24,346 bases of DNA from positions 1-24,346 of IMG/VR virus record IMGVR_UViG_3300046012_000447; one strand, written 5' to 3'. The first letter of the stretch is position 1. The number at the start of each line of letters is the position of its first letter. Both the position numbers and the translations under genes were made by a program. The notes under the pieces are model-generated. The model searched no databases, was not told the origin of the DNA, and worked only from the letters and a program-made list of their open reading frames with translations. Source of the DNA: a virus. Shown one piece after another: positions 20,618 to 21,623 of this stretch.

Positions 20618-21286
20618 ATGGATCAGAATGATTTCAAGCAATTCCGTCGCTCACAAATCGCCGAGCTTCGCCCTTATGTACCAGGCGAGGATATGAAGGG
20701 TATCGCAATCAGTATGCCGGACGTCGGCGCCGGTTCGCCCAAAACCGGGGATATGATCGCGCGCAATCCAAAAAACCATAATGACAAATGGTTGGTTGCC
20801 GAAAAATATTTCAACGACAATTTCGAACCGTTGCCGGAAGATGGAGCCCCATTCGATTTCGAGAATGGCATTCCAACCCCGCACAAGGAAACGTTGAGCC
20901 GGGTTTCGTCCATCGCTGCGCATTACCTGAAGCAAAACACCCGAGAGATTGAAATTCTCATCGAAACCAACCAAGCGGGTGTCATCGAAGATATTCGGAC
21001 GCTCGCAGCGTCTTGCTTGTCCCAGGATGAAACATCGGGACAGGAAAAACCGACCGGGGATTTCTTTTCCCGCCTGAAAGCCGAGCGCGCAGACCTTTCG
21101 GGAAAACTCGATGGGCTCTCCCGGTTTCTTCGGTGCGGACCCGGCAAAGGCATGGACCGTCACCACTGGCTGATGCTCGAACGGCAGGGCCAAATAATGT
21201 CCGAATATCTCGCGGTGCTTGATGAGCGTATCGCAGACCTTCAAATTTCGCAGCGCTCGTCAACGGAGAACGATCATGCCAAATGA
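20618..21286 (+). CDS. Two-domain phage hypothetical protein (crAss001_48-like C-terminus)
   Basis: A 222-residue protein joining two known phage segments. The N-terminal 75 residues (FRRSQIAELRPYVPGEDMKG, SPKTGDMIARNPKNHNDKW, EKYFNDNFEPL) recur alone in other phages as a small protein. The C-terminus (about 150-212: FFSRLKAERADLSGKLDGLS, MLERQGQIMSEYLAVLDERI) matches the 'crAss001_48-related' helical family. Function of both is unknown. ATG 20618 has GGAG seven bases upstream (GGAGCATTTTCATGG), nearly the same leader as the gene at 22366. It overlaps the next gene by 11 bases. Confidence 0.75.
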   Translation: MDQNDFKQFRRSQIAELRPYVPGEDMKGIAISMPDVGAGSPKTGDMIARNPKNHNDKWLVAEKYFNDNFEPLPEDGAPFDFENGIPTPHKETLSRVSSIAAHYLKQNTREIEILIETNQAGVIEDIRTLAASCLSQDETSGQEKPTGDFFSRLKAERADLSGKLDGLSRFLRCGPGKGMDRHHWLMLERQGQIMSEYLAVLDERIADLQISQRSSTENDHAK

Positions 21287-21623
21287 CGCCGGTATCCACC
21301 CTGCACCGGAAGAATTTTCAACATCGGAAATTGCGCTCGACCCGATCCTGCACTTCTTCCACTACGCGCACCTTCCACCAAAACTTCAGAGCACGTCGCG
21401 AGCATTCTTCCTGCTGGCCTCGCACGTCGTCAAAACGGTACCCCGCAATGCCGAGCGAACGGTAGCCCTGCGCAAGCTTCTCGAAGCCAAGGATGCTGCG
21501 GTTCGGGCGAACCTGTCGACGCCCAAATCTGCTTCGCCGCCGACCGATCCCGAGCTTGGCGAACCGGTACCAACGGGCGGGCATGATATCGACCGCGACG
21601 GACCCGTTTCATTTGGCGGTTGA
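21276..21623 (+). CDS. Acb2/Tad1-like hairpin protein, candidate anti-CBASS cyclic nucleotide sponge
   Basis: A 115-residue protein starting at ATG 21276 (GGAG seven bases upstream); the longer frame from 21219 lies inside the preceding gene. Residues 25-80 form a helical hairpin: LHFFHYAHLPPKLQSTSRAF, VVKTVPRNAERTVALRKLL and EAKDAAVRANL. The pattern YAHLP...S..F..LA......P...ER..ALRKLLEAKDxAVRA is one I associate with the Acb2/Tad1 hairpin family, whose members bind the cyclic nucleotides that activate CBASS or Thoeris defence. The tail after 82 is Pro/Asp-rich and disordered. The family link is remembered and not searched; the anti-defence role is inference. Confidence 0.65.
   Translation: MPNDAGIHPAPEEFSTSEIALDPILHFFHYAHLPPKLQSTSRAFFLLASHVVKTVPRNAERTVALRKLLEAKDAAVRANLSTPKSASPPTDPELGEPVPTGGHDIDRDGPVSFGG

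Follow-up and report, generated by a model that had tools for sequence, protein, structure and literature searches.

The best reading of the 115-residue protein P0001, judged from its sequence and predicted structure, is that it belongs to a divergent, pan-phylum and so far unnamed branch of the Acb2/Tad1 hairpin superfamily, referred to here as the YAHLP family. It is probably a nucleotide sponge that works as an oligomer and whose ligand has changed. Its gene was found in a 24,346-base IMG/VR virus record, the whole of which is called the window below, and lies outside the structural genes; the window also carries a leftward replication module, consisting of DNA polymerase, exonuclease, an SSB-like protein, helicases and primase. 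For the last 7.8 kb of the window, the phage collection gave no close relative, and only short matches covering at most 2% of the query. The sequence-only reading had placed an ORF with YAHLP, ERTVALRKLLEAKD and AVRA segments at 21276-21623, and this is present exactly as described: according to the ORF list and its translation, the frame is open over these positions on the plus strand and encodes MPNDAGIHPAPEEFSTSEIALDPILHFFHYAHLPPKLQSTSRAFFLLASHVVKTVPRNAERTVALRKLLEAKDAAVRANLSTPKSASPPTDPELGEPVPTGGHDIDRDGPVSFGG. The features of the gene and its surroundings are as follows (window positions, plus strand throughout).

20618-21286 (+): upstream coupled gene P0002, 222 aa; ORF with an 11-nt overlap with P0001
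20618-20836 (+): N-terminal domain of P0002, residues 1-73, which other phages encode on its own as a small protein
21059-21235 (+): C-terminal PF21825 crAss001_48 domain of P0002, from a profile match
21265-21268 (+): GGAG, a Shine-Dalgarno-like site 7 nt 5' of the P0001 ATG, read from the sequence
21276-21623 (+): P0001, YAHLP-family helical-hairpin protein, 115 aa; ORF, phrog profile matches and phage relatives
21713-21750 (+): terminator-like hairpin of 16 pairs with a T-rich tail that closes the two-gene unit, from the sequence

Since the ATG of P0001 lies inside the final 11 nt of P0002, the two genes look translationally coupled. The strong terminator-like site 3' of P0001, with its 16-bp stem, ends this unit, and as such the operon of accessory small proteins that had been proposed holds as a two-gene unit and as nothing larger. 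The adjoining gene had been said to encode a two-domain protein, which it does: PF21825 is matched at residues 148-206 (E 3.5e-13), and the N-terminal domain is of a type that stands free in L336-L341 and is frame-split in L342-L344. This N-terminal domain ends in SPKxGDMIARNPKNHNDKWLVAxxYFxDNFE, and in the window it is fused to crAss001_48. No positive sign of an anti-defence role was found for P0002 or for genes further downstream, and the earlier suggestion that the neighbours might be anti-defence genes as well was left with nothing to show for it.

That the P0001 ORF is real, far beyond chance, follows from its relatives, which tblastn found in 312 phage records (best E 2e-26; among them Vibrio, Erwinia, Acinetobacter, Brevibacterium, Gordonia and Ruegeria phages), a first scan of viral contigs in at least 585 stretches, and a search of prokaryote species-representative genomes in 192 stretches from many phyla. 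Hosts of the phages and prophages that carry the gene include Pseudomonadota, Actinomycetota, Cyanobacteriota, Planctomycetota, Bacteroidota, Myxococcota, Acidobacteriota and others. P0001 matches phrog_1761 (E 2.7e-24) and phrog_5120 (E 1.5e-14), both PHROGs without an assigned function, as do all 45 aligned members of the family. The hand-written probes, one of 60 aa and consensus-like and one canonical of 59 aa, served for searching only, and their matches were checked independently. In public records the members are mostly called 'hypothetical protein' or are named for an unrelated domain. Two such names were rejected: 'Occludin homology domain' goes back to a weak match (E 0.044 against a cut-off of 31 bits), and 'anti-TRAP domain' describes a zinc finger that one member has in addition at its N terminus. 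We found no mention of PF24729, phrog_1761 or the YAHLP family in a literature search that covered few subscription papers.

The AlphaFold2 model of P0001 (m93741572c279, alignment A1) has a mean pLDDT of 83.6, and its hairpin blocks, at 95-98, bear out the helical hairpin that had been read from the sequence, with helices at residues 35-54 and 59-78. Along the gene, the predicted elements map as listed here.

21342-21359 (+): short N-terminal helix, residues 23-28 (PILHFF), just before the aromatic Y30 and the invariant HLP (32-34); AlphaFold2 (pLDDT 95-98) and conservation
21363-21365 (+): codon of Y30, aligned with T4 Acb2 Y8; alignment A3 and column counts
21378-21437 (+): hairpin helix 1, residues 35-54; AlphaFold2
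21450-21509 (+): hairpin helix 2, residues 59-78 (AERTVALRKLLEAKDAAVRA), near-invariant and charged; AlphaFold2 and the Acb2/Tad1 helix-2 register
21528-21620 (+): C-terminal tail, residues 85-115, ending DGPVSFGG; low confidence, pLDDT 65-79

The three predicted helices match the published topology of the Acb2 protomer, a short helix followed by two long antiparallel helices (PMC12043709; PMC10419184). The model shares this topology with Acb2 of T4 (Vs.4, 7uq2) and of Pseudomonas phages (p26, 8h2j/8ixz), both of which, unlike P0001, have their hairpin interrupted midway by a long insertion. Tad1 (7uav, 8kbh) has a C-terminal hairpin of the same superfamily, linked to the canonical set described below, but also an N-terminal antiparallel beta-sheet, whereas the P0001 model is without any strand. 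Among the matches returned by Foldseek and VIA-align for the P0001 model there was no Acb2. The model of a canonical family member that served as control (L166; pLDDT 85.6; helices 2-9, 20-40 and 45-68) likewise retrieved none in Foldseek, and we therefore read these fold searches as uninformative in either direction, the approach being limited where hairpins are this small, and not as counter-evidence. A PDB search with the single P0001 sequence returned designed helical proteins only, and Gp22 (8jaj, E 0.014-0.11) was rejected as a chance match, covering 26-46 residues within 529 aa and gaining nothing from better profiles.

Across 49 nr70 representatives, no variation is seen at F28, H32, L33, R66-D73 and R77, and very little at S41, E60, L65 and V76. 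Invariant charged residues stand on all faces of helix 2. Ascertainment accounts for part of the invariance at residues 66-73, as KLLEAKDA and RKLLEAKD were search patterns of the contig scans. In the unbiased tblastn set, RKLLE(A/S/T) with K/Q/R-D occurs in nearly all members, phiAsp2 (NSLVEAKD) being the exception. Natural variation within this most conserved helix is seen in Brevibacterium phage AGM9 gp27 (L351 589-834), where a 51-bp tandem duplication, labelled a repeat region in the record, repeats LPDGPEKSTALRKLLE. Outside the hairpin, the long members L027, L031, L039, L053 and L056 have D/E-rich tails with a P..F end (e.g. DETPVPFK, SEEPIPFS). Such tails, the DGPVSFGG of P0001 included, are reminiscent of the acidic C-terminal tip of SSB and could serve as docking peptides. 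In Mycobacterium phage prophi79-1, an M. abscessus prophage, a divergent relative overlaps an annotated gene:

L349 484-747: divergent YAHLP-helix protein
L349 740-1326: annotated nucleotidyltransferase

How, then, does the family relate to Acb2 and Tad1? The sequence-only reading, which took P0001 for a protein of the Acb2/Tad1 hairpin type, had pointed to an HMM search against that family, and this search came back empty: P0001 has no match to PF24729 or to an NCBIfam profile and lies below every curated Acb2/Tad1 threshold. PF24729 has a cut-off of 27 bits and recognises T4 Acb2 at 71 bits. It is nevertheless the family most often matched by divergent YAHLP members (6 of 25, best E 0.0042, below the cut-off); it matches AGM9 gp27 at 1.2e-4, again below the cut-off, and subfamilies of YAHLP are ranked first by it, though below cut-off as well. 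None of 16 viral records of the same phages had a PF24729 match above the cut-off, and one (G015) had a weak match. PhiAsp2 Pas23, AGM9 gp27 and the PDGAEKSAG group are members that bridge YAHLP and PF24729.

A further link runs through the canonical family of FTYHPPK type, for which 80 loci were collected and aligned (A2). This set reaches Acb2 homolog 43 (9ptq) at E 2.6e-6, Tad1 (8kbh) at E 0.0036 and T4 Vs.4 weakly (E 0.59), and it matches phrog_1454 throughout. The same phrog_1454, which represents the canonical FTYHPPK hairpin, matches 32 of 45 YAHLP members (best E 4.4e-5), and conversely phrog_1761 matches 20 of 39 canonical members (best E 2.4e-4). In both families a short N-terminal element containing F-x-Y leads into a two-helix hairpin, and both show the helix-2 pattern P..(S/N).E.(S/T).A..KL.EA along with these reciprocal profile matches. 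They differ in that YAHLP has HLP and not HPPK, a loop before helix 1 that is four residues shorter, and the changes of T to R66, W to A74, N to V76, A to R77 and the invariant helix-1 R/K to S41. By sequence, 9ptq is the closest solved relative, its LPEGREKSVFKTKLEEA aligning gap-free to helix 2 of P0001, and it passes PF24729 whereas P0001 does not.

In alignment A3, P0001 Y30 falls on Y8 of T4 Acb2, the stacking tyrosine, and an aromatic Y/F/W is kept there in 44 of the 49 nr70 members; Y8A abolishes cyclic-dinucleotide binding by T4 Acb2 (PMC12657218; PMC12657230). Helix 2 runs in a register common to both proteins, and three further T4 Acb2 positions differ. T68, whose change to M lowers binding (PMC12657230), corresponds to the family's invariant R66; F82, a residue that stacks on the T4 Acb2 ligand (PMC12657218), is aliphatic in YAHLP (L/I/V80; L80 in P0001); and the basic K23 is S41 in 48 of 49 YAHLP members and an invariant Arg in the canonical family. 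The invariant Arg of the canonical SRE is mostly A or P at YAHLP position 59. At the positions of S41 and residue 59, the Acb2 of the Pseudomonas phage has K26 and R67, which presumably contact ligands. That one pocket residue is kept and several are swapped for equally fixed ones fits either a different conserved ligand or the loss of the nucleotide function. Because other Acb2 ligand positions are systematically replaced, the changes argue that the ligand of P0001 would not simply be drawn from the Acb2 set. The assignment to the Acb2/Tad1 type stands as distant homology within the superfamily, carried by profiles, decoys and register, and does not extend to a demonstrated Acb2 or Tad1. Since P0001 scores below the curated profiles and differs at these residues, it is not filed as either.

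The same replacements are what one would see if the ancestry is shared and the job another, with the hairpin acting as an oligomerisation or protein-binding module without nucleotide binding, e.g. as a regulator or adaptor that holds an attached or coupled partner such as a crAss001_48 domain, a zinc finger or a P-loop-like domain. We give this reading roughly one chance in five. In its favour, P0001 is coupled to a PF21825 protein in the window, and on three other contigs a PF21825 domain immediately follows the YAHLP hairpin within one protein:

L002 3995-4552: YAHLP hairpin-PF21825 fusion, from a PF21825 match
L005 3995-4531: YAHLP hairpin-PF21825 fusion, from a PF21825 match
L055 1563-2078: YAHLP hairpin-PF21825 fusion, from a PF21825 match

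These fusions suggest that the two modules may cooperate. A YAHLP or YAHLP-like helix is further fused behind CxxC zinc fingers (L083 765-1133; L348 379-723) and behind a P-loop-like GAVGSGKS segment in an Erwinia jumbo phage (L249 2255-2707), and these arrangements, too, would suit an adaptor. A general link between YAHLP and crAss001_48 was rejected, as the fusion is rare (3 of 160 loci) and PF21825 occurs anywhere in 3 of 18 records, which makes the association occasional and not the rule. Against this reading, only a few members carry extra domains, and most consist of a single domain of 60-80 aa with no partner attached. A zinc-ribbon extension is also seen in the canonical family (L178), and the Y8 position of YAHLP stays aromatic as described above.

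Helical hairpins are common, and homology is no proof of function. Could the resemblance to Acb2 and Tad1 have arisen by convergence of short amphipathic helical hairpins, instead of by descent? Small hairpins of this kind yield many chance matches, and P0001 on its own stays below the Pfam cut-off. Several independent tests, however, gave reciprocal matches that preserve the register. In hhalign, the YAHLP and canonical profiles matched at E 6.4e-6 (85% probability) and E 3.5e-6 (88%). A YAHLP-only profile ranked 9ptq second of 177,635 PDB sequences, in register, at E 0.09. Ungapped comparison of helix 2 gave P0001 a Z of 5.0 with 9ptq, 4.1 with canonical proteins and 3.4 with T4 Acb2, all in the register that the alignments predict; the bridging phiAsp2 Pas23 reached 5.7 with T4 Acb2, and P0001 against the Tad1 helix was at chance level (Z 0.4). 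As a decoy control, a YAHLP HMM run on 4,062 ORFs of canonical loci reported 73 of the 80 true proteins, with 48 of the 80 above the first decoy, and the reverse test, run on 14,743 ORFs, retrieved 156 of the 160 YAHLP proteins. Common ancestry of YAHLP and the Acb2/Tad1 hairpin is thus likely, with convergence left at little better than a one-in-ten chance. The top two hits of the reverse test were a single non-YAHLP ORF that occurs in both L120 and L121 (2675-2986), directly upstream of the YAHLP gene. It resembles a canonical hairpin (AAAKLEELFFWIRAGMAR; 15 bits), had no Pfam match, and is possibly a second hairpin protein.

The position of the YAHLP gene is not conserved across phages and across genomes of many phyla. 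In Gordonia phage Ruthy it is flanked by connector genes, in Vibrio phage martha 12B12 it immediately precedes the portal gene, and in Ochrobactrum phage OH it stands four genes ahead of that for the terminase large subunit. A T4-like phage has it with DNA topoisomerase on one side and RNA ligase 2 on the other, and elsewhere it follows an RNA polymerase gene or adjoins a holin. The first three of these sites could speak for an accessory protein of the virion or its morphogenesis (a connector, scaffold or packaging helper), but such a structural role predicts synteny, of which the other sites and that in the window show none, and we consider it highly improbable. The lack of synteny fits an accessory gene, and varied positions together with many phyla are as expected for one that is portable.

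The results above show the gene, its family, the predicted hairpin, the remote homology to Acb2/Tad1 and the kept and changed ligand positions; from them we infer for P0001 oligomerisation, nucleotide binding and a role in immune evasion. We somewhat favour, as the most likely mechanism, that an oligomeric hairpin protein stoichiometrically sequesters a nucleotide-type immune signal. Each protomer would consist of the short N-terminal helix with its aromatic residue, followed by the two antiparallel helices, and copies would most likely assemble as an oligomer, which by analogy would be a hexamer. During infection this oligomer would take up the signal, and with the signal sequestered the host effector would not be triggered. 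If this holds, P0001 would work in the manner of Acb2/Tad1. More tentatively, with odds somewhat against it, YAHLP may constitute an unrecognised class of phage immune-signal sponge with the Acb2/Tad1 hairpin as its scaffold, in which the rearranged and almost invariant charged set S41, R66, K72, D73 and R77 is adapted to another nucleotide signal, one that hosts of many phyla have in common. That signal possibly comes from a defence system for which no countermeasure is known so far.

If P0001 and its relatives are indeed sponges, a very common anti-defence gene would have been overlooked, sitting just below the curated Acb2/Tad1 threshold. The fixed but altered set of residues would then lead to a question that can be tested, namely what host signal is so widely shared across bacteria that the protein has hardly been free to change.
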